A stretch of DNA of 33,914 nt from Acidobacteriota bacterium (GTDB taxonomy: Bacteria > Acidobacteriota > Holophagae > Thermotomaculales > Thermotomaculaceae). The DNA is taken from contig JAADGL010000037.1 of assembly GCA_013152385.1 (NCBI GenBank), forward strand, positions 1-33,914, read 5' to 3'. Under the pieces are notes generated by a model. The model had not been told where the DNA came from. It worked only from the letters and a program-made list of their open reading frames with translations, and did no database searches. Each line of letters begins with the position of its first letter. Position 1 is the first letter of the stretch. Positions 15,513 to 26,564 of this stretch are shown piece after piece. A program made the position numbers and the translations under genes.

Positions 15513-18500
15513 TTACAGCCCACGCAGCACCTTCATAAAGCCCTGCTGAATCGCATCGTATCCGGAAATCCGCTGGGAAGGGTCCTTTTCAATAAGGCTC
15601 ATGATAAAATCCGAAACCGGTTTCGGCACCCGGGGCTCCACCTCTTTCGGCGGGGTGGGGCTTCTGTATAAAACCGCATACATCAACTCTGCCATGTCTT
15701 CACCGATATAGGGTGCCACCCCGGTGACCATCTCATAGGCCATAATACCCACAGCATAGTAATCCACTGAAGATGTCGCGTGTTTACTGCCTCCGAGGCT
15801 TTCCGGCGGTACGTATAAAATGGTTCCGGCCACAAGGCCGGTCCGGGTCAGGGTTGTGGCACCGGCCTGCCGGGCAAGCCCCAGATCCAGCAGCTTGACG
15901 CAGGATCCTGCAAAGGTAACGGGATCATCCGCCTCATCAATCAATTGAAAATCCGGGGTGTCAAGAATCATGACATTTTCCGGTTTTACATCCCGATGAA
16001 CAATTCCTTTTTTGTGAAGGTAGTGAAGTGCGTCACAGAGCACCGTACAAACCGCCAGAACCGCCCGGATACTCATTCCTTCTTCCATCAGGCTCCGAAG
16101 CGGTATGCCCTGACAGAATTCCATTGCATAGTAAAGGGAACCGCCTGCTTTACCGCTGTCGTAAATCCTCACAATATTGGGGTGATTCATCTCCTGCCCC
16201 AGTTTTCCTTCCCGGAGAAAACGTTTTCTCGCATCTTCATCTTTTACATCCGAATCCATTACTTTCAGTGCCACAATCTCATCATCTTTTCTGGATATTG
16301 CCCGGTACACCGTTCCCATTCCGCCGCGTCCAACCGGCTCAATTATCCGGTATTTTCCAAATACATGGGTGGAACGCCACTGTTTGATCACAGACCAGAA
16401 ACGCAGCAACGCCTTTGCCAGCAGATTCATCAGAATACCGGCCAAAACCAGTACCACTCCCAGAAACCAGAGACTGCGCCACCACGGCGTCACCACAGTA
16501 AAACTGAAAGAAGCCGGTGATTGACTCCAGACTCCATCATTATTGGCAGCATAGACCAGGAAAGTATATTCACCCGGGTCCAGGTTGGTATATTCCACTT
16601 CCGTTTGTGATGTTTCCGAAAACCCGCTGTCAAATCCCCGCAGCATGATACGGTACCGATTCCTCTCCGGAACCACAAAACTGAGGCCGGCATAGCAGAC
16701 TCTCAGGCGTTTCCAGCCCGGCTGCAGTGAGAACTTCTTATGAAGAGGACATTGCCGTCCATCCACCCGAACGCCTTCCAGCTGAACGAAGGGAGCAACT
16801 TTATTTCTGGGAATACGGCGGGGATTTACCACAGTAAGCCCATTGACTGTGGCAAACCATATTTCCCCCGAACGGTCTTTCCAGGAAACCGGCTGAGTAC
16901 CGCCCAAACCACTGTTGATCGGCAGTCCGTCCCGGGTGTCGAAAAGTGCCGGGAAAACCTTTCCGTTTTCTTCAGACATTGCCACATCCAGCGCAGTTCT
17001 GGAAACAGAACAGATTCCGTTTCCTTCCGAAATCCAGAAATTCCCCCTGCCGTCCGGTTGAATGGCATAAATATCATTGGAAGGCAGACCGTTTTTAACC
17101 GTTAGTGCATTGATTGTATTGTTGCGAATCCGTCTTAAACCGAAATCCGTTCCCGCCCATACCGTACCGTTTTTTTCAACAAACAATTCATACACAAAAC
17201 TGTCATTCAACCGGCCGGGCAATGGAATAACCCGAAGCGAATCACCGACAATAATATGACAAACACCACCATCTGTTCCGATCCACAGTGTTCCGTCCGG
17301 TGCGGAACGAATGACTCGAACCCGTTCGGAAGGCAACCCGTCGACTTTTTTAAAAACCTGAATTTTCCCCTTGAATATTCGGAACAATCCGTGTTCTGTT
17401 CCAATCCAGCGGCTTTTGTCCCGGGCAAGAATCATCGAAAAAATTGTACTTTTCCGAAATTTCAGAAACAGCCGCTTCTCATCTGCGCTTTCAACAGGCA
17501 AAGCATGAAGGCCCCGCCCCCCTGCCCATATGCGGCCGTTTCTCAACGGTAAAAGAGAAAAAACATCCTTCCCCTTCAAAAAAACTTTCGAATCTCCCTC
17601 GGCACCAAACCGAACAACCCCCTTTTGTGTCGCAACCCAAAGAAAATTGATGTCATCTTCACATACGCTCTGAACAACCCGGTATGGCAGGCCGTCCGCA
17701 GTGCCGTAACTGGAAAAAGCGGTTCGGCGAAAACGGTCTACACCGCTGCCGGTTCCCACCCACAAGCTTCCTTCCCGATCTTCAAAAAGCGAAAGGATCT
17801 TCTGTTGTGTCAGGCCGTCTTTTTCCCCGAATACCTGCATGCGCGCGCCCACTAAACGGCCCACTCCCACTCCTTCAATTCCACACCATAAGGTACCGTC
17901 CCTTGTAACCAGCAGAGGAAACAGCGACTTCCCCGAAAGAGCCGGCTGAAGCCGGACAAAATCAAACTGCCCGTTTTGACTGTGAAACAGCCCCTTATCG
18001 GTGGAAACCCAGACACCTCCCCGGTGATCCGCTGCAATTGCCCAGACCTTCTTTGTTTTTGAACCGACAACAATTTGAGAAACATGATTTTTATGAATCG
18101 AATATAAACGGCTCTCGGCAATAACCCAGATTTCCCCAGGGTGAAGCTCTATCAGCCCCTGAATGAAAAGGTTCTGAAAACGGGGGAAAATATGAAAGCG
18201 CATTTCCCCTTTCTTCATATATGCCAGGCCATGATCGGTACCGGCCCAGAATCTGTGCTTGCTGTCCGCAAGGAGCTTTATAACGGTTCTCCCCGGCAAC
18301 CCGCTTCTTTTTCCGAAATATGTCCACTTCCCGTTCTTCAGGCACAGCAGTCCGTTTCCGGTTCCCACCCACAAACTGCCGGCGGGGAACTCGGCAAGAC
18401 ACAGGGAATATCCGCTCTTGAAAACCGGAATGGAAGCATTGGAAAAAATAAGGAAACGGGTGCCATCATAGCGGATCGCCCCCAAACCGGTGGCAAACCA

Positions 18501-18683
18501 GAGAAATCCGTCCGAGCTCTGCCGGATACATCGGACATCGCCCAAAGACCGGCTGTCCACCTCCTGCCAGCGTTCATGCTTCCACTGCCGGATCGTGCGG
18601 GGAAAACCGGCATACAGTGGAAAAACACACAGCAATACGACAGCAACGATACAGTATCTGCATAAGGTGCGGAACTTTAACAA
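15513..18683 (-). CDS. Periplasmic two-component-propeller sensor fused to a Ser/Thr protein kinase
   Basis: 1056 residues. An N-terminal signal/anchor ('YCIVAVVLLCVFPLYAG') is followed by many propeller blades of the Reg_prop type, e.g. 'GFLWFATGLGAIRYDG', 'GSLWVGTGNGLLCL' and 'GTLWIGTDGGVCHI', then a Y_Y_Y-like domain ('YRIMLRGFDSGFSE...' near residue 690). A membrane helix lies at about 731-755. The cytoplasmic C-terminus from ~777 is a Hanks-type kinase: glycine loop 'GRGGMGTVY', Lys in 'VALKVM', catalytic Asp898 in 'HRDVKPENVM', DLG in place of DFG ('LLDLGLAR') and PPE in place of APE. Propellers like this normally precede histidine kinases; here the output is Ser/Thr phosphorylation. 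The start is TTG with AGGGGG upstream. It lies 56 bases after the small peptide gene and may be in the same transcript. Confidence 0.9.
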   Translation of the reverse strand: MLKFRTLCRYCIVAVVLLCVFPLYAGFPRTIRQWKHERWQEVDSRSLGDVRCIRQSSDGFLWFATGLGAIRYDGTRFLIFSNASIPVFKSGYSLCLAEFPAGSLWVGTGNGLLCLKNGKWTYFGKRSGLPGRTVIKLLADSKHRFWAGTDHGLAYMKKGEMRFHIFPRFQNLFIQGLIELHPGEIWVIAESRLYSIHKNHVSQIVVGSKTKKVWAIAADHRGGVWVSTDKGLFHSQNGQFDFVRLQPALSGKSLFPLLVTRDGTLWCGIEGVGVGRLVGARMQVFGEKDGLTQQKILSLFEDREGSLWVGTGSGVDRFRRTAFSSYGTADGLPYRVVQSVCEDDINFLWVATQKGVVRFGAEGDSKVFLKGKDVFSLLPLRNGRIWAGGRGLHALPVESADEKRLFLKFRKSTIFSMILARDKSRWIGTEHGLFRIFKGKIQVFKKVDGLPSERVRVIRSAPDGTLWIGTDGGVCHIIVGDSLRVIPLPGRLNDSFVYELFVEKNGTVWAGTDFGLRRIRNNTINALTVKNGLPSNDIYAIQPDGRGNFWISEGNGICSVSRTALDVAMSEENGKVFPALFDTRDGLPINSGLGGTQPVSWKDRSGEIWFATVNGLTVVNPRRIPRNKVAPFVQLEGVRVDGRQCPLHKKFSLQPGWKRLRVCYAGLSFVVPERNRYRIMLRGFDSGFSETSQTEVEYTNLDPGEYTFLVYAANNDGVWSQSPASFSFTVVTPWWRSLWFLGVVLVLAGILMNLLAKALLRFWSVIKQWRSTHVFGKYRIIEPVGRGGMGTVYRAISRKDDEIVALKVMDSDVKDEDARKRFLREGKLGQEMNHPNIVRIYDSGKAGGSLYYAMEFCQGIPLRSLMEEGMSIRAVLAVCTVLCDALHYLHKKGIVHRDVKPENVMILDTPDFQLIDEADDPVTFAGSCVKLLDLGLARQAGATTLTRTGLVAGTILYVPPESLGGSKHATSSVDYYAVGIMAYEMVTGVAPYIGEDMAELMYAVLYRSPTPPKEVEPRVPKPVSDFIMSLIEKDPSQRISGYDAIQQGFMKVLRGL

Positions 18684-18739
18684 TTAACCGGTGCCCCCTG
18701 CGGTAATTTTAACACGCCCGTAAATTCAAAACATTCAAC

Positions 18740-18880
18740 TCAGCGAGGTTCACACGGGGCCTGTTTGGGGCAATGTTCCGTGTCCCCGTCTTCTCCCGCT
18801 TTCGTAACAACCTCTGTTTTGTCATTCAGGACAGCCAATTGTGGCTCCAGCGATTGCAGACTGTTTTTCCGGTTTTCCAT
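18740..18880 (-). CDS. Small peptide gene, candidate radical-SAM-modified peptide precursor
   Basis: 46 codons, ATG at 18880 and TGA at 18740-18742. The ATG is preceded by AAAGGAGGG with five bases between, a near-ideal ribosome site. It starts inside the last 59 bases of the radical SAM/SPASM gene but in a different frame, so it is not a continuation of it. The peptide begins MENRKNSLQSLEPQLAVLND, continues with an acidic, charged stretch (KTEVVTKAGEDGDTEH) and ends CPKQAPCEPR, with two cysteines six positions apart near the end. That plan, an uncleaved polar leader with a short Cys/Pro core, fits a RiPP precursor, and the adjacent maturase-type enzyme supports it. I know no family match, and the first 20 codons also code for the enzyme, so the reading remains provisional. 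Confidence 0.6.
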   Translation of the reverse strand: MENRKNSLQSLEPQLAVLNDKTEVVTKAGEDGDTEHCPKQAPCEPR

Positions 18881-20162
18881 TTTTCCCTCCTTTGAGTTTT
18901 GACATTGTATGGAGTATCACCGCCTCCTGCAGGCAGTGTTTCCATCTTCCGCAGGCAGTTTCCGGGCCGCTTTTTTCCAGAAGGTCCGGACATCGCCCCA
19001 TGCAGGCCGGCAGCAGGCTGCACACTCTGCATTCCCGCCACTGCAACGGGGAAAACCGTGCCCATTGCCGGTTCTTATCCGGTGCTTCTGACTCGGAAAC
19101 ATGACTGACAACCTTTTTCGGATCCCCCACATCGTTCCAGCATTTGTAAATGTCACCCCCGGGGCCGATCACATAAGCAAACGCGGAAACCTTTGAACAA
19201 ACCGTCATCTGCGGCAATTTCAACAGCCCGTCTTCCCCCCTCCTGTAGGCGGACCGGGCAAAATTCACCCATTCCGAGGCAAACTCTTCAGGGTGCAAAC
19301 ATTTATTTTTATATTCGCTGTTGGCTTCGTTGGTGGCATCAACATTGGCAATCTCAAACCGTACTTTCCCTGATAATCCGGCGGCTTCCAGTATTGCAGC
19401 CAACTTTTCCCATTCTCCGCGGTTTTCCCGGTCCAGATTCATCCGGACCTTCACCGTCTTAAATGCTTCCGCCGCAATCCGGACACTCTCCAGCAAGCGG
19501 TGAAAAGTCCCGCCTCCCCCACGGAGGACACGGCGGCGGTTATGAACTTCCGGCGGGCCGTCCAGGGTAATTTGAATACCGGAAATCCCCGCCGAAGCAA
19601 GTTTTGATGCCAGTGTTTCCGTCAGCAGATAACCGTTTGAAACAAGGAAAAACGAAACATCCTTCCCCCGGGATCCGCAGATCGCCCGGATCCGTTTTGT
19701 GACACTCAAAACCATTTCCGCCGCCAGCAGGGGCTCCCCTCCGTACCACGTCACGGAAACTTCCCGGACTTCCTTCATCCGCCTGTCAACAAACCCAATC
19801 AGCCGGGTTGCCGTCTCTTTGCTCATGGTACCGGCTAAGCGGTTCTCGTAACAGTAAGGGCAGGCAAAATTACAATCCAGTGTCGGGGCAATTGTCAGCA
19901 TCAGCTTGTTCCGGGCACTCCGCAGACGCCGGTATTTCTCCATTGCCAGTGCCAATTCATCTGTTTCACCGGGAACCAGAACCCCCTGTTCCCTCATCAC
20001 GGCGGAGACCTCCGGGTCCAGCTCACGGCATTTCCCATCCCGAACCAGCTTCCAGCTCCGGCTGTCCAGGCGTACCACGGCACCGGTCCTGGCGTTATAC
20101 ACAATCCGGAGCGTATCCGCCATTTGGAAAAAGTGATTGTATCGGGATAACTTTTCCACCAT
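18822..20162 (-). CDS. Radical SAM/SPASM peptide-maturase-like enzyme
   Basis: 446 residues. An N-terminal ~80-residue region ('MADTLRIVYNARTGAVVRL' etc.) resembles the PqqD-like peptide-recognition domains of RiPP maturases. It is followed by the radical SAM core with C-x3-C-x2-C in 'LDCNFACPYCYENR', the SAM motif 'VTWYGGEPLL' and 'GISGIQITLDGPPEVHNRRR'. The C-terminal SPASM region has 'CSKVSAFAYVIGPGGDIYKC' and 'CRVCSLLPACMGRCP', then two more Cys ('TACGRWKHC'), enough for auxiliary 4Fe-4S clusters. The architecture is that of enzymes making thioether or carbon-carbon links in peptides; anaerobic sulfatase-maturase-like activity is an alternative, but no sulfatase gene adjoins. The ATG at 20162 has GTGAGG upstream; a TTG at 20195 is less likely. 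The next gene is a short peptide overlapping its end by 59 bases. Confidence 0.88.
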   Translation of the reverse strand: MVEKLSRYNHFFQMADTLRIVYNARTGAVVRLDSRSWKLVRDGKCRELDPEVSAVMREQGVLVPGETDELALAMEKYRRLRSARNKLMLTIAPTLDCNFACPYCYENRLAGTMSKETATRLIGFVDRRMKEVREVSVTWYGGEPLLAAEMVLSVTKRIRAICGSRGKDVSFFLVSNGYLLTETLASKLASAGISGIQITLDGPPEVHNRRRVLRGGGGTFHRLLESVRIAAEAFKTVKVRMNLDRENRGEWEKLAAILEAAGLSGKVRFEIANVDATNEANSEYKNKCLHPEEFASEWVNFARSAYRRGEDGLLKLPQMTVCSKVSAFAYVIGPGGDIYKCWNDVGDPKKVVSHVSESEAPDKNRQWARFSPLQWRECRVCSLLPACMGRCPDLLEKSGPETACGRWKHCLQEAVILHTMSKLKGGKNGKPEKQSAIAGATIGCPE

Positions 20163-20240
20163 ACCCGCCTCACCGGAATTTCCGTTTATTGACAAATGCC
20201 CGTGACGCCCGCCGCCACACTCAAGTTGTTTCTTGACTAA

Positions 20241-20308: not shown

Positions 20309-20337
20309 GAAAAAAAGCCCGGCAAAACATGCCGGGC
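20309..20337 (-). terminator. Intrinsic terminator of the sensor/small envelope gene operon
   Basis: On the minus strand CCCGGCA-TGTTT-TGCCGGG (20318-20336) followed by CTTTTTTTCT. It lies about 60 bases after the Pro-rich protein gene and separates it from the radical SAM gene. Confidence 0.85.
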
Positions 20338-20397
20338 CGGGCACACAGGGGGGAAATAATAAAAATCCGTACATTTTTACAAGATTGCCAGCTGCCC

Positions 20398-21069
20398 TTA
20401 TCTTCCGTAAAACAGCATTTCCCGGTTTGCGCCAGCATCCTGCATCACATGGACACCGTCAAAATAGATTTTCACACGGGCCACAATGCGGTTATCCAGC
20501 ACAAGGGGAAAAGACCAGCAGGATTCCGGTTCAATAAACTCCGCATAAGGCAGAATCTTCAATCGGTTGAACACCGGCTGCAAAGCCGCTTTCACCGATT
20601 GCAGCCCCGCTGTGGTTTCGCCGAAGCGACACGGCATGATTCCCAGCGGAAGAATGCTGCCGTTTTCCGGGTTTATCCGCAGAACGCCAATGGCAATTCC
20701 CTGATATAAAATACCGGCCTTCACTTCAAGCTCACCGGACGGCCCCCGTGAAACCCACACCTTTCCCGGCCGCATCAACCGGTTCAGTTCCCGGACAGTG
20801 GCAACCGCCCTCTGCAGATTCCGCAGCAGCTCTGCGGCGGGAACGGCACAGACAACAGGAATGCCGGGGGCTGGTGGAGACGGCGGAACCAGGCCGGGAG
20901 GGGCGGGAACAGGCGGATTTGCCGGGGGCAACGGTGCAGGGGCCGGCTGCTGAAGCAGCAAAGGCGGCATCTGCTTCTGCGGCGGCGGAGATTGCGCCGA
21001 CACCGGCTGTGCTGTTAAAACACAGCAGAAAACCATAACAACAACGGAAAACAAAAACTCTTTTTTCAT
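20398..21069 (-). CDS. Secreted Pro-rich protein of unknown function
   Basis: 223 residues. A signal peptide ('EFLFSVVVMVFCCVLTAQPV', cleaved near SAQ-SPP) leads to a proline/alanine-rich spacer at about 26-72 (motifs PPPQK, PAPAPLPP, PPSPPAPG), then a compact ~150-residue domain from 'AAELLRNLQRAVATVRELNR' to 'ANREMLFYGR'. The latter contains 'AGILYQGIAIGVLRINPENG' and 'KIYFDGVHVMQDAGANRE', which I do not recognise. The Pro-rich stretch suggests it spans peptidoglycan or keeps the domain away from the membrane. CGGAGG precedes the ATG. It is the last gene after a small lipoprotein-like gene (gap 12 bases), behind a sensor kinase pair, and ends at a clear terminator. The two-component system next door may control it. 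Confidence 0.8.
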   Translation of the reverse strand: MKKEFLFSVVVMVFCCVLTAQPVSAQSPPPQKQMPPLLLQQPAPAPLPPANPPVPAPPGLVPPSPPAPGIPVVCAVPAAELLRNLQRAVATVRELNRLMRPGKVWVSRGPSGELEVKAGILYQGIAIGVLRINPENGSILPLGIMPCRFGETTAGLQSVKAALQPVFNRLKILPYAEFIEPESCWSFPLVLDNRIVARVKIYFDGVHVMQDAGANREMLFYGR

Positions 21070-21081
21070 GGTAACCTCCGT

Positions 21082-21372
21082 TTAATGTGAATCTTTTTCA
21101 TTCCGGGATTTTTCCAGCCGGTCAATTTTTTCTTCCAGTTTTTTCAATTGCTCATTGAGGGCATTCAGCGTTTCCTCAAGGGCATGGGGCTTCGGCGTTT
21201 CAGCGGCAGTTGTTTTCTTCCAGATCAAAATCCCCGCCAGCGCGAAAACACCGAGAATAATCCATTCAAACCCGGGAAAAGGCGGCGGCGGGGGGCCGGG
21301 CGCACAGGCCCAGAAAGAAAAAAGCAGAAAAAACAGGCAAATCCGGCAAAAAACTTTCACTGACGTATTCAT
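21082..21372 (-). CDS. Small membrane or lipoprotein-like protein with coiled coil
   Basis: 96 residues. The N-terminus 'VFCRICLFFLLFSFWACAPG' resembles a signal with a lipobox-like FWAC, so a lipoprotein is possible. A Pro-rich patch (GPPPPPFPG) is followed by one membrane helix 'WIILGVFALAGILIWKK' and a C-terminal charged coiled coil ('LEETLNALNEQLKKLEEKID'). I do not recognise a family; the layout resembles small envelope-stress or phage-shock-like membrane proteins, but that is only shape similarity. The ATG at 21372 has GGGAGG five bases upstream; an ATG-like start two codons earlier is less well placed. It shares an operon with the Pro-rich secreted protein, 12 bases downstream. Confidence 0.72.
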   Translation of the reverse strand: MNTSVKVFCRICLFFLLFSFWACAPGPPPPPFPGFEWIILGVFALAGILIWKKTTAAETPKPHALEETLNALNEQLKKLEEKIDRLEKSRNEKDSH

Positions 21373-21432
21373 CGCCACCTCCCGTCCTCACCCATAAAGT
21401 AGGAAAAAAAGATAAAGAAATTCTGTACGGAA

Positions 21433-21450
21433 CATTAAGAAAAAATGAAG
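21433..21450 (-). promoter_or_regulatory. Possible OmpR/PhoB-type operator before the two small envelope genes
   Basis: On the minus strand CTTCATT and CTTAATG repeat with an 11-base period (CTTCATTTTTTCTTAATG), the spacing of OmpR/PhoB-family direct repeats. A TATCTT -10-like box follows 18 bases later, so an activator bound here would overlap the -35 region. The upstream genes encode an OmpR-family regulator and its kinase. Confidence 0.35.
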
Positions 21451-21462
21451 ATTCAAAAAATA

Positions 21463-22905
21463 TTACAGCGGCAGAGTGAAAAAGACGGTTGTGCCGTCCC
21501 CCTGTGAACTCTCAATCCGGACATTCCCGCCCTGGGCATCAACCATGGACTTTATCAGCGTAAGGCCGAGCCCTGTCCCCCTGCCTCCGGCGGCGCCCCG
21601 GTTTCCCTTCCGGTAAAAAGGCTCAAAAGCGCGGGACAGAGTTTCGGCATCCATTCCGCCCCCGGTATCCGAAAACCAAATTTCCACAAACCCCGGAACC
21701 AGGCGCCACCCGGACACAACCGACGTTTCAGGGGGACAATGGGAAAGCACATTGGAAAGAAGGTTGAGAAGAATCTGTTCCAGCATATCGGCATCCGCCA
21801 TCACCGTAACCGGCGGCCCCTCCTGAATTCGCACCGGAATTTCCGGGGCGAAAAGCCCGCTCTGCTCCTGAAAACGGCGAAAAAAACTCTTCAGTTCCAC
21901 CGCATCCTTTTCCACATCAGCGGCATTCTCCACTCTGGAAATTCCAAGCAAGCGGTCACAGAGGCGGATCAGATGATTAACCTCCCGAAACATCCCTTTG
22001 GCCAGACGGTTCACCGTCTCCGGTTCATCCACCGCATCCCTCAGCAGAACCTCCAGCGAACCCCGCAACCCGGTCAGAGGGGTCAGGAGTTCATGGGCGG
22101 CATTTGTGACAAATCTCTTTCTCGAACCAAACATCTCCCCCAGCCTGTTTGTCATTAACTCAAAAGAATCCGCCAGATTTCCGATTTCATCCTTCCGGTT
22201 CCGGACATCGGGTTTCAGATTAAAATTGCCCCTTTCAATCTCCCGGCACGCCAGCGACAGGCTCCGCAAATCCTTCAAACTTAAACCAATCAGCCAATAG
22301 CCGAACAAAATTCCCAGAATCAGAACAATCATCACAGCCGCCATCTGCATATAGCCGTACCGGAACAGAATCTTCCTGATACCCGAAAGGGGCCGGCTCA
22401 CCTGAATCACACCCAACACACGGGGACTGTCCGGTTCCGGACGCAGGGGAATCAGGCAGGTCAGATACAGAATGCCGTTTTCCTTATTCCAATATGTAAT
22501 TTCATTGTTTCCCGACAGGGCCTTTGAGACATAATCGGGGTTCGGGGCCGGAGCATCCGGTTCTTCCGCCAGGCGTTTGCCCCGTGCAATCACATGGCCA
22601 CTGCTGTCCAGCACAAGGGCCGCAGTGTTCCTCGAAGTCAGATCCCGGGCCAGCGCAAGGGCTTTCCGTACCGGAACCTCCGCCGGCGGGGCAGAACGCC
22701 GGTTTTGCAACCCATCACCGGCCAGCCAATGCGCAATAACCGGTTTCGCCTCGGCGCGGACATGCCCTGCCTCATTTTCAATAAAAAGCTGCCAGATATT
22801 CCAATAAGAATAATAACTGACCGGAACAACGGAAAAAATCAATAAAACCGCATAAAGCAAACTTATCTTCGTTCTCAACCCCAGGCGGTCAAAAATCCGA
22901 TTCAT
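21463..22905 (-). CDS. Membrane sensor histidine kinase (HAMP, HisKA, HATPase)
   Basis: 480 residues. Two membrane helices ('ISLLYAVLLIFSVVPVSYYS' near 15-34 and 'AAVMIVLILGILFGYWLIGL' near 190-209) flank a ~150-residue periplasmic sensor domain. HAMP follows, then HisKA with His271 in 'NAAHELLTPLTGLRG' and the ATPase domain with N box 'LEQILLNLLSNVL', G1 'SDTGGGMD', F 'FEPFYRKG' and G2 'GRGTGLGLTLIKSM'. The H box reads HELLTP where HELRTP is usual; the phosphorylated His is kept. It shares a TAATG stop-start overlap with the response regulator, so the two are a cognate pair. The signal is unknown; the downstream pair of small envelope genes suggests a cell-envelope response. Confidence 0.95.
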   Translation of the reverse strand: MNRIFDRLGLRTKISLLYAVLLIFSVVPVSYYSYWNIWQLFIENEAGHVRAEAKPVIAHWLAGDGLQNRRSAPPAEVPVRKALALARDLTSRNTAALVLDSSGHVIARGKRLAEEPDAPAPNPDYVSKALSGNNEITYWNKENGILYLTCLIPLRPEPDSPRVLGVIQVSRPLSGIRKILFRYGYMQMAAVMIVLILGILFGYWLIGLSLKDLRSLSLACREIERGNFNLKPDVRNRKDEIGNLADSFELMTNRLGEMFGSRKRFVTNAAHELLTPLTGLRGSLEVLLRDAVDEPETVNRLAKGMFREVNHLIRLCDRLLGISRVENAADVEKDAVELKSFFRRFQEQSGLFAPEIPVRIQEGPPVTVMADADMLEQILLNLLSNVLSHCPPETSVVSGWRLVPGFVEIWFSDTGGGMDAETLSRAFEPFYRKGNRGAAGGRGTGLGLTLIKSMVDAQGGNVRIESSQGDGTTVFFTLPL

Positions 22906-23764: not shown

Positions 23765-25978
23765 TCAGTTGTGAACAACGTGAATGCGGCCGGTACCGGA
23801 GGTGAAGCGGGCAATTTGGGTTGCCGCGGGGACGCCGGCGGTTTGCAGGGCGGTGGCCAGCGCGGCGGCGTCCGGTTCCGGCACCGCGATCAACAGGCCG
23901 CCGGAGGTCTGGGCGTCTGAAAGGAGCAGCCGCTCCGCCATGGCTATGCTTTTGTTCCAGTCGGTGCGTTTTTCCGTGTAGGCAAGGTTGTTCCGGGTGC
24001 CGCCGGGAATTACGTCTGCCATTGCCAGTTCACGGGCGCCGGGGAGTATCGGTACCGATTCCGCCTGGATTTCCGTGTCCACGGTTCCATCACCCAGCAT
24101 TTCAGACAGGTGCCCCAGAAGGCCGAAGCCGGTAACGTCGGTGCAGGCGTGAACCGTGAAGCCTGCCATGATTTCAGCAGCCTGCCGGTTCAGCTGCGAC
24201 ATGGTTTCCACCGCAGGGGCGAAGGCGGTTTCATCTATGATTCCCCGTTTCAACGCGGTGGCGAGGATTCCCGTTCCGATGGCTTTGGTCAAAATCAGGG
24301 CGTCTCCGGGCCGGGCGCCGATGTTGGTCAATACGTGTTTCGGGTGTACCGTACCCACCACCGCCATTCCGAATTTGGGTTCGCTGTCTTCCACGGAATG
24401 ACCGCCGAGGATAAAGATTCCCGCTTCTTTTGCTTTGGCGTTTGCCCCTGCCAGTATCCGGTTCAGTATGTCCTCCGGCAGACGGCCCACCGGGAAACCG
24501 ACAATGTTCAGTGCAAAAAGCGGTTTTGCCCCCATGGCGTAGATGTCGGACAGGGCGTTGGCCGCTGCGACGGCACCGAATTGAAACGCGTCGTCCACCA
24601 CCGGAGTGAAAAAATCCACGGTTGCAACCAGAGCGGTGCTGTCGTTGATTCTGTAAACCGCCGCGTCATCTGTTGTGTCTGTTCCCGCCAGTATGTCGGG
24701 ATTGTCCGGTATCGGCATTTTTTTGAGAATTTCTTCCAGTATCCGGGGCTGAATTTTGCAGGCGCAGCCCATTCCCCGGGTAAACCGGGTCAATTTCACC
24801 GTTTCGCCTGCAACGGAATTCGCGGCAACTGTTTGTCCATCCGGCTGAAGCCGCCGTACCGCTGCCACAATTTCTTTCGCCGCCCGGTCAATTTCCCCTT
24901 CGGAGGTCATCCGGCCGGTGGAAAACCGGACTGTTCCCATGGCGTATTCCACCGGCACGTTCATGGCTTCCAGCACCGATGACACATCCACCCGGTCGGT
25001 GTGGCAGGCTGCCCCGGCGGAAGCCGCCACTCCGGTTAATTCCGACAGAAGGGTATTGGCTTCCACTCCCCGAAAGGAGATACTTAATGTGTTGGGCAGG
25101 CGTTTTTCCGGGTGTCCGTTTACCCGGCAATCCGAGATTTCCCGCGTCAATCTGTCTTCCAGCCGGTCCCGGAGTGCCGCGGAATGCGCCATGTCTTGTT
25201 CAAGGCGGTTCAGCGCCAGTTCACAGGCTTTTCCCAGCCCGGCAATTTCCAGGATGTTTTCGGTTCCGGCACGCCACCCCCGTTCGTGGTCCGCCCCGTG
25301 AACCAGCTTTTCCAATTTTACGCCGCTTCGGATATAAAGGGCGCCGATTCCCTTGGGCCCGTAAAATTTGTGCCCTGCCACAGAGAGCAGGTCCACCCCC
25401 AGGTCATTCACCCGGACCGGGATTTTCCCCACCGCCTGGGCCGCGTCGGTGTGCATCAGGATACCCCGTTTTTTCGCCAGTGCGGCAATTTCGGCAATGG
25501 GCTGAATGGTGCCCACTTCGTTGTTTGCCGTCATGATTGTAATGAGGATGGTCTGCGGGGTAACGGCGGCTTCCACTTCTGCCGGGGATACCATGCCGGT
25601 TTCATCCACCGGCAGCACCGTTACCGTGAATCCGTTTTTTTCCAGAAATCGGCAGACTTCCAGAACCGCCGGATGCTCCACCGCCGAGGTGATGATGTGG
25701 TTTCCCTTTTCCCGGTACGCGAAAGCCGCCCCTTTGATGGCATAGTTGTTGGATTCGGAGCCGCCGCTGGTAAAGACAATCTCATCCGGCCGGCATGAGA
25801 GGAGGGCTGCCACCTGACGGCGGGCGGTTTCCACCGCTTTTTTCGCTTCCAGCCCGAAGGAATGGGAACTGGAGGGATTTCCGAACACACTGTCAAGAAA
25901 AGGGCGCATTGCCGCCGCAACCGCCGGGTCAATGGGGGTTGTGGCGTTGTAGTCCAGGTAAATCGGCGTTTTTTCCAT
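23765..25978 (-). CDS. Selenocysteine-lyase-like cysteine desulfurase fused to selenide, water dikinase (SelD)
   Basis: About 737 residues, two complete enzymes in one chain. Residues ~1-385 are a NifS-fold desulfurase: 'PIYLDYNATTPIDPAV', the His of 'AVEHPAVLEVC', PLP Lys204 in 'VAGHKFYGPKGIGAL' and Cys325 in 'SAGAACHTDRVDVSSVLEAM'. That AACH-T-D loop resembles animal selenocysteine lyase (AACHSD) more than IscS. From ~395 a full SelD follows: Cys405 and Lys408 in 'GMGCACKI', 'TVDFFTPVVDDAFQFGAVAA', 'LILTKAIGTGILATALKRG' and 'DVTGFGLLGHL'. SelD makes selenophosphate from selenide and ATP, for selenocysteine tRNA or selenouridine. The lyase half could hand selenide directly to SelD. The ATG at 25978 lies four bases after the FMN reductase stop. 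NifS-SelD fusions are known but uncommon. Confidence 0.94.
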   Translation of the reverse strand: MEKTPIYLDYNATTPIDPAVAAAMRPFLDSVFGNPSSSHSFGLEAKKAVETARRQVAALLSCRPDEIVFTSGGSESNNYAIKGAAFAYREKGNHIITSAVEHPAVLEVCRFLEKNGFTVTVLPVDETGMVSPAEVEAAVTPQTILITIMTANNEVGTIQPIAEIAALAKKRGILMHTDAAQAVGKIPVRVNDLGVDLLSVAGHKFYGPKGIGALYIRSGVKLEKLVHGADHERGWRAGTENILEIAGLGKACELALNRLEQDMAHSAALRDRLEDRLTREISDCRVNGHPEKRLPNTLSISFRGVEANTLLSELTGVAASAGAACHTDRVDVSSVLEAMNVPVEYAMGTVRFSTGRMTSEGEIDRAAKEIVAAVRRLQPDGQTVAANSVAGETVKLTRFTRGMGCACKIQPRILEEILKKMPIPDNPDILAGTDTTDDAAVYRINDSTALVATVDFFTPVVDDAFQFGAVAAANALSDIYAMGAKPLFALNIVGFPVGRLPEDILNRILAGANAKAKEAGIFILGGHSVEDSEPKFGMAVVGTVHPKHVLTNIGARPGDALILTKAIGTGILATALKRGIIDETAFAPAVETMSQLNRQAAEIMAGFTVHACTDVTGFGLLGHLSEMLGDGTVDTEIQAESVPILPGARELAMADVIPGGTRNNLAYTEKRTDWNKSIAMAERLLLSDAQTSGGLLIAVPEPDAAALATALQTAGVPAATQIARFTSGTGRIHVVHN

Positions 25979-25982
25979 GTTT

Positions 25983-26564
25983 TTATCCCCGGAGCTTTTC
26001 GGCAAAGGCGGTCAAGGCCGCGCCCAACTGTTCCGCTTTCGCGGCAAAACGGCTGTCGGCCAATGTTCCGTCCGAAGAAAATACTTTGTGGGCGTGTGGA
26101 ATTGTCACCTGTTCCGGAATGACCGCGACACCGAGGTTGGAGAGCAGCGTTCTCAGGTGCTGCAGGCCCCGAACACCCCCCAGGCTGCCCGGAGATGCCG
26201 ACATGATGGCCGCAACCTTACCCTTGAACGGAACCGGAGAATCTTCTTTTGCCGACGGCCGGGACAGCCAGTCAAGGATATTTTTCAGTACCCCGGAAAA
26301 AAATCCGTTGTACTCCGGCGAGGCAATGAGAAATCCGTCCGCCCCGGCAAACAGGGCTTTCAGCCGGATCGCGGTTTCCGGAATCCCCTCCGCCGCCTCC
26401 AGGTCCCCGTCGTAGAGAGGCATGGGAAAGTAGTTCAAATGAAGTTCAATCACGCTGGCACCCCGGAGTGACGCCCCCCGGATTGCATGGGAAAGCAGCA
26501 TCCGGTTAAAAGAATTCGACCGTGTACTGCCGCTGAATGCCAGAAAATGAATTTCATGGGCCAT
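25983..26564 (-). CDS. NADPH-dependent FMN reductase family flavoprotein
   Basis: 193 residues with the flavodoxin-like fold of the NADPH-dependent FMN reductase/chromate-quinone reductase family. The FMN phosphate loop is 'FLAFSGSTRSNSFNRMLL', the mid-protein signature is 'FLIASPEYNGFFSGVLKNIL' and the flavin-binding loop near the end of strand 4 is 'IMSASPGSLGGVRGLQHL'. It should reduce FMN, quinones or metal oxyanions with NADPH. The ATG at 26564 has AAGGAG six bases upstream; a TTG at 26582 is less likely. It ends four bases before the SelD fusion, so one message is expected. A role in reducing selenium oxyanions such as selenite to feed SelD is an attractive inference, not shown. Confidence 0.92.
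   Translation of the reverse strand: MAHEIHFLAFSGSTRSNSFNRMLLSHAIRGASLRGASVIELHLNYFPMPLYDGDLEAAEGIPETAIRLKALFAGADGFLIASPEYNGFFSGVLKNILDWLSRPSAKEDSPVPFKGKVAAIMSASPGSLGGVRGLQHLRTLLSNLGVAVIPEQVTIPHAHKVFSSDGTLADSRFAAKAEQLGAALTAFAEKLRG

Follow-up and report, generated by a model that had tools for sequence, protein, structure and literature searches.

The DNA analysed here, a 33,914-nucleotide stretch from an Acidobacteriota bacterium (the window), encodes on its minus strand, in this order, a 446-aa radical SAM/SPASM protein, a 46-codon peptide frame and a 1056-aa membrane kinase (Table 1). These genes probably form a peptide-pheromone-like signalling cassette, in which the propeller kinase would have the modified peptide as its cognate ligand. 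The initial annotation had suggested from the gene order that a modified peptide is sensed or acts as a signal, and this now appears to be the best-supported function of the locus, given a mosaic pattern of divergence in the window's genus and the co-variation of peptide tail and sensor ectodomain in a second lineage. Genetically diverse peptide pheromones and their matching membrane kinases have been described mostly in Gram-positive bacteria, where the kinases are histidine kinases; propeller sensors, although very common, are still orphan receptors. If the proposed function is true, radical SAM chemistry in Acidobacteriota would supply the signals of Ser/Thr receptor kinases, the orphan propeller sensors would gain a ligand, and a signal–receptor pairing would become directly testable, with natural specificity variants at hand.

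Table 1. Positions of the cassette features and of the adjacent hairpin in the window.
Feature	Position	Strand	Basis or remark
Radical SAM/SPASM peptide maturase, 446 aa	18822..20162	-	NCBIfam profile search, fold match
Maturase start, ATG (in-frame TTG at 20195)	20162	-	
Predicted RRE (PqqD-like) domain, residues 1–82	19917..20162	-	fold prediction
Radical SAM CX3CX2C motif (C97, C101, C104)	19851..19874	-	invariant across 23 homologues
SPASM region (C322, C341, C378, C381, C387, C391, C404)	18951..19199	-	23 homologues
Ribosome-binding site AAAGGAGGG of peptide gene	18885..18893	-	AAAGGAGG retained in 4/4 species
Precursor peptide gene, 46 codons + stop	18740..18880	-	
Cys37 codon	18770..18772	-	sole Cys kept in 4/4 peptides
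Maturase/peptide gene overlap, 59 bases	18822..18880	-	only 17 bases in sister species
Membrane Ser/Thr kinase, 1056 aa, TTG start	15513..18683	-	
Propeller/Y_Y_Y ectodomain, codons 25–735	16479..18611	-	divergent sensor part
Ser/Thr kinase domain, codons 778–1049	15537..16352	-	divergence no higher than flanks
Divergent block (maturase from codon ~35 onwards, peptide, ectodomain up to codon ~600–700)	16600..20060	-	
Intrinsic-terminator-like hairpin between upstream histidine kinase/lipoprotein genes and maturase operon	20316..20338	-	

The short frame, which translates to MENRKNSLQSLEPQLAVLNDKTEVVTKAGEDGDTEHCPKQAPCEPR, starts inside the end of the radical SAM gene in another reading frame, with four bases between AAAGGAGGG and its ATG (five when counted from AGGAGG). 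The initial annotation had drawn attention to this overlapping frame behind a ribosome-binding site and had proposed looking for a conserved short frame at the maturase 3' end of relatives, together with a codon-substitution test. Close maturase homologues are present in three other species of the window's genus (G001, G002 and G003), and at the 3' end of each the same ATG, preceded by AAAGGAGG, opens the same alternative frame, the encoded peptides being MEKQGEKLKGLEAELAEMEAADAVVTNVDSEGQKPGKYCTDKGKQ, MEKQDEKLRGLEAELAEMKAADAVIKTVDSEAEKPVKRCVERQ and MEKQDEKLKVLEAELAGMKATDMVVTAVDSEGEKPGKQCNDKLH. The non-overlapping part of these three frames contains no stops and has a pN/pS of 0.34; changes at the three codon positions number 19/21/39, with an excess at the third. 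Column shuffling matched or exceeded this selection signal in just 10 of 5000 cases. The peptide gene is conserved and under purifying selection, and a search of the genus with the peptide profile gave matches only at these loci. We regard the frame as almost certainly a real precursor gene. Nine residues are invariant among the four peptides, eight of them within the first 24 and the ninth being Cys37, so that the peptide looks like a conserved leader (approximately residues 1–24) followed by a variable core, or tail, with one kept cysteine. The second Cys of the window motif CPKQAPC is found in the window peptide only. Given this lack of conservation, the previously considered linkage of the two cysteines to each other is not supported.

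A propeller-sensor membrane Ser/Thr kinase follows the peptide gene in 4/4 species at the same chromosomal site, the maturase–peptide–kinase order being conserved at one syntenic position, as far as the compared genomes, largely draft assemblies, extend. The cassette of G001 shares with the window an upstream flank of PLD-like, FMN reductase and cysteine desulfurase–SelD fusion genes, and a downstream flank of TauE permease and sulfatase genes. The fusion of cysteine desulfurase and selenide, water dikinase (SelD) is 746 aa long in the window (23765–26005). The kinase and TauE also lie downstream in G003, where a second propeller kinase is located immediately upstream of the maturase (L018, 1–818), in a tandem ended by the contig edge. 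Upstream of the hairpin, the window carries histidine kinase, response regulator, lipoprotein and Pro-rich genes; the histidine kinase/response regulator pair is absent at the G001 site and is not found between kinase and maturase in G003. These upstream genes were rejected as parts of the system, because the terminator-like hairpin separates them from it and they are missing at the G001 site. Part of this region (20398–22905), encoding a Pro-rich secreted protein, a 98-aa lipoprotein-like protein and the histidine kinase, shows dS of only 0.27–0.43 to G002, where the other genes compared mostly reach dS 1 or more, which, with its absence at the G001 site, suggests a recently transferred module. 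A seeming maturase paralogue in the window's own assembly (G000) lies on a 3.3 kb contig (C57; L016, L105), the last 91 bases of which are identical to the first 91 of a G002 contig (C97) that starts within the kinase gene and lacks the maturase. Therefore, the C57 copy is most likely a wrongly binned G002 allele.

The architecture of the maturase is typical of peptide-modifying enzymes. The full set of three radical SAM and seven SPASM cysteines is present; of the latter, six are invariant across 23 homologues and C381 is almost so. The structure predicted for the enzyme (pLDDT 89.7) shows a strand-rich, three-helix, RRE-like N-terminal domain (strands 3–5, 9–14, 18–23, 28–31 and 62–64; helices 34–41, 50–58 and 69–81; pLDDT >90), and its top PDB fold match is CteB, which carries an RRE. 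The profile search of the maturase gave no match to PqqD, and the PqqD-like N-terminus is a predicted RRE fold. The initial annotation had pointed out that peptide maturases with such an N-terminus and SPASM clusters are often neighbours of short precursors. The C-terminal extension encoded by the overlap occurs in the window only and is predicted with low confidence. Among named families, the Clo7bot, TIGR04463, CefB and geopeptide maturase models matched at about 1e-84 to 1e-59, all far below cut-off, and the scores against the best NCBIfam models lay between about a third and a half of the required values: 281.6 bits (9e-84) against 600 for TIGR04334 (Clo7bot) and 264.5 bits (1.5e-78) against 525 for TIGR04463. 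The PapB model gave 110.8 bits with a cut-off of 340, and the SCIFF cut-off was likewise not reached, in agreement with the earlier impression that no named family fits. Together with the conserved, selected peptide gene, the predicted RRE and the full SPASM motif make good the initial assignment to RiPP-type loci, and the window peptide is very probably modified by this maturase.

The kinase consists of a signal sequence, a Reg_prop propeller ectodomain, a Y_Y_Y domain, one TM helix and a cytoplasmic Ser/Thr kinase domain (PF00069). The label of sensor kinase, applied to it initially, holds for the sensor ectodomain, a propeller of the two-component type, but not for the output domain, which, being PF00069, is not that of a histidine kinase. 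Fold prediction of the full-length protein reached a mean pLDDT of only 58, and a fold search from this model was dropped as its quality was inadequate. Elsewhere in the phylum, the propeller Ser/Thr kinases examined (L169–L171, L174) had no convincing peptide beside them.

The comparison of the window with the three sister species revealed a mosaic. The ratio of window-to-sister over sister-to-sister protein distance (bootstrap intervals in brackets) was 1.06 (0.57–2.08) for maturase residues 1–34 and 3.20 (2.73–3.85) for residues 35–430, 3.69 (2.39–6.57) for the peptide, 3.01 (2.65–3.46) for the ectodomain, 2.02 (1.58–2.63) for the Y_Y_Y/TM segment, 1.20 (1.00–1.45) for the kinase domain and 1.25 (1.02–1.56) for TauE. 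The intervals of block and flanks are well separated, the short maturase 5' segment excepted. Correspondingly, dN between the window and the sisters was 0.11–0.22 for most flanking genes and the kinase domain, 0.51–0.54 for the maturase past codon 34, 0.6–0.8 for the peptide and 0.83 for the propeller ectodomain, and DNA profiles placed the borders at about maturase codon 35 and kinase codon 600–700. The maturase core, the peptide and the sensor ectodomain are approximately threefold more diverged than expected, and the maturase 5' end, the kinase domain and the neighbouring gene are not; the pattern represents a single event in four species, with the window allele type coming from one of them. 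The divergence profile therefore indicates that one block spans enzyme core, signal and sensor, the kinase output being common to the genus.

A phylum-wide search with the kinase led to an independent instance in a second lineage, one genus in another family of the phylum. Its SPASM enzyme (about 350 aa, without an RRE) is of a different type from that of the window and matches the PapB model at 5.5e-24, below the cut-off. The enzyme gene is divergent to the peptide gene, on the other strand, and wherever the assembly shows the adjacency, a homologous propeller Ser/Thr kinase comes next after the peptide gene; in G493 (L195) a peptide–kinase–peptide–kinase tandem occurs. Enzyme and peptide are found together in 13 of the 16 species, and the remaining three lack both. 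The peptides are 63–68 aa long, with a strong ribosome site where checked, and each of the 14 has exactly one Cys, located in a variable tail (pN/pS 0.64) behind a conserved leader (pN/pS 0.34).

Among ten complete loci of this genus, tail distances followed ectodomain distances (Mantel r 0.75, p 0.0001), also when the kinase domain (partial r 0.76) or the radical SAM enzyme (partial r 0.72) was taken into account, whereas the correlation between tail and kinase domain was not significant (r 0.19). The tail varies with the periplasmic part of the receptor and not with its cytoplasmic kinase domain, which speaks for a site of action outside the cytoplasm. The correlation stayed at r 0.54–0.70 when one to two loci were dropped and fell to 0.41 (p 0.06) when three of the ten were dropped; co-transfer by recombination could yield part of it, since tail and ectodomain are physically adjacent. 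Trees of the two kinase parts disagree: the kinase domain rejects the G493/G317/G499 group (p-AU 3e-6), which has support of 100/99 in the ectodomain tree, and the ectodomain rejects the G378/G137/G492 group (p-AU 0.003), which has support of 99/97 in the kinase-domain tree, the clades for these AU tests having been picked after the distances were seen. Between G378 and G492, DNA identity is 84% in the leader, 38% in the tail, mostly 43–68% in the ectodomain and mostly 87–95% in the kinase domain. A leader that stays constant next to a changing tail and sensor suggests that the unit of exchange is a functional one and reflects more than adjacency, although linkage may have led to co-transfer.

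These data can be accommodated in the following model. With its N-terminal RRE the maturase would bind the leader of the 46-aa peptide, and it would modify the C-terminal core, probably at the one conserved Cys by forming a thioether or a related structure. After maturation the tail would leave the cytoplasm by an unlinked route, through an exporter encoded elsewhere, and would bind the propeller ectodomain that the neighbouring Ser/Thr kinase exposes to the periplasm; the ligand-bound kinase would then phosphorylate cytoplasmic targets. Against this model, no exporter, protease or dedicated response gene was seen beside the peptide in either lineage, and the propeller Ser/Thr kinases L169–L171 and L174 have no such peptide neighbour. 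Peptide, maturase core and ectodomain may be exchanged or diversified jointly as a specificity block (a pherotype), with the kinase output domain kept. It is likely that the window peptide is the ligand of this kinase; for a cell-to-cell (pherotype) use the scales are evenly poised. We lean slightly towards the broader reading that the loci represent an undescribed pheromone class of a Gram-negative phylum, characterised by SPASM-matured single-Cys peptides, periplasmic propeller Ser/Thr kinase sensors and pherotype-like exchange of signal and sensor (and also of the enzyme core in the window's genus), and that such systems arose in Acidobacteriota on two or more occasions, using two different kinds of SPASM enzyme. 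Our literature search, in which subscription papers were sparsely covered so that families described there may be missed, found no description of such a system, and a search on FlmE/OhkG returned nothing relevant.

Other explanations have to be weighed against this model. SPASM maturases serve many product types, and a single divergent allele is known in the window's genus; the RiPP could thus target other cells or serve as an antimicrobial or a cofactor, with the kinase as a regulator or bystander and the mosaic as one lateral replacement with arbitrary ends. However, the kinase adjoins the peptide not only in all four species of the window's genus but also in the second lineage, with its different enzyme on the other strand, and in both lineages the block ends at the border of ectodomain and kinase, in the second also at that of leader and tail, which makes a product of another kind unlikely. 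It is still less probable that the peptide is a signalling ligand that escapes radical SAM modification and that the enzyme, merely co-located, serves another substrate. The short, polar and variable peptide core speaks for this reading, but an RRE-type N-terminus with SPASM architecture is typical of peptide maturases, the maturase core diverges along with the peptide, and peptide and enzyme are co-present or co-absent in 16/16 genomes of the second genus.

The idea that the short frame is a chance product or remnant, the true maturase substrate being encoded elsewhere, draws on its overlap with the maturase gene and on the just 22–29% identity of the sister peptides to that of the window. 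It is scarcely credible, as start, ribosome site and invariant residues are conserved, the selection signal is rarely reached by shuffling, and no other small conserved frame was seen in the cassette, which has one peptide copy per locus. The signalling cassette remains our preferred interpretation.

The cassette resembles ComQXP(A) of Bacillus in combining a modifying enzyme, a small pre-peptide and a membrane kinase (PMC4008528). In both systems the sensor part is variable and the cytoplasmic part conserved, as described for ComP, and a C-terminal extension of the enzyme overlaps the peptide start, the comQ–comX overlaps arising from a ComQ extension of 13–18 residues (PMC4008528). However, ComQ is an isoprenyl transferase and ComP a polytopic histidine kinase of Firmicutes, whereas the Acidobacteriota window encodes a radical SAM/SPASM enzyme and a Ser/Thr kinase with a periplasmic propeller, with no conserved linked response regulator gene. 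The staphylococcal agr hypervariable region covers agrB, agrD and agrC (PMC10482373), that is, the processing enzyme, the peptide and the sensor part of the receptor kinase, and its thiol-based cyclic peptide may be a plausible parallel for the window peptide. The mosaic of the window's genus is of this comQXPA/agr type, with enzyme, peptide and sensor hypervariable and kinase output conserved. Nevertheless, neither a ComQ isoprenyl transferase or AgrB protease nor a histidine-kinase receptor with a linked response regulator was found at the window locus, and there is no sequence relationship to agr.

With respect to the enzyme, the closest parallels are the PapB and SCIFF (CteB) ranthipeptide maturases, which share the RRE, radical SAM and SPASM arrangement but act on precursors with repeated motifs, unlike the single-Cys core of the window peptide. 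PapB joins Cys to Asp/Glu at spacings of 0–6 (PMC9413430). Since Asp/Glu occurs 0–6 residues after a Cys in 4/4 peptides of the window's genus, their sequences permit, and only permit, a PapB-type link; in the second genus, several peptides lack an acidic residue behind the Cys. The best profile matches of the window enzyme, TIGR04334 and TIGR04463, are associated with Cys-rich precursors, in contrast to the one conserved Cys found here. Streptococcal RaS-RiPP loci under Rgg/SHP control also tie radical SAM RiPPs to cell–cell signalling (PMC13361665, PMC8092268). In those loci the RiPP operon is controlled by a separate SHP peptide and a cytoplasmic Rgg, whereas in the window system a membrane kinase would have the RiPP itself as its ligand.

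Several other candidates and loci deserve mention. Cyclopropanation of the conserved Val was set aside as a mere lead, as TvgB acts on TVGG repeats (PMC9062424). The nearest Acidobacteriota relatives of the maturase (30–37% identity) differ in having mostly multi-Cys, Cys-rich precursors and no adjoining propeller kinase, and an Armatimonadetes fragment with 61% local identity (L058) is a broken remnant without a peptide. In large-genome relatives of the same class (L107, L108, L109), the maturase is followed by a peptide ending DGDNTWCDEGC, with two such loci 20 kb apart in G018; these apparently constitute another RiPP family. In Thiocapsa sp. KS1, a 45-aa peptide ending CCVDHLCGCK lies just behind a maturase homologue (L030, 7402–7539), which groups with the one from Hydrogenedentes (L032).
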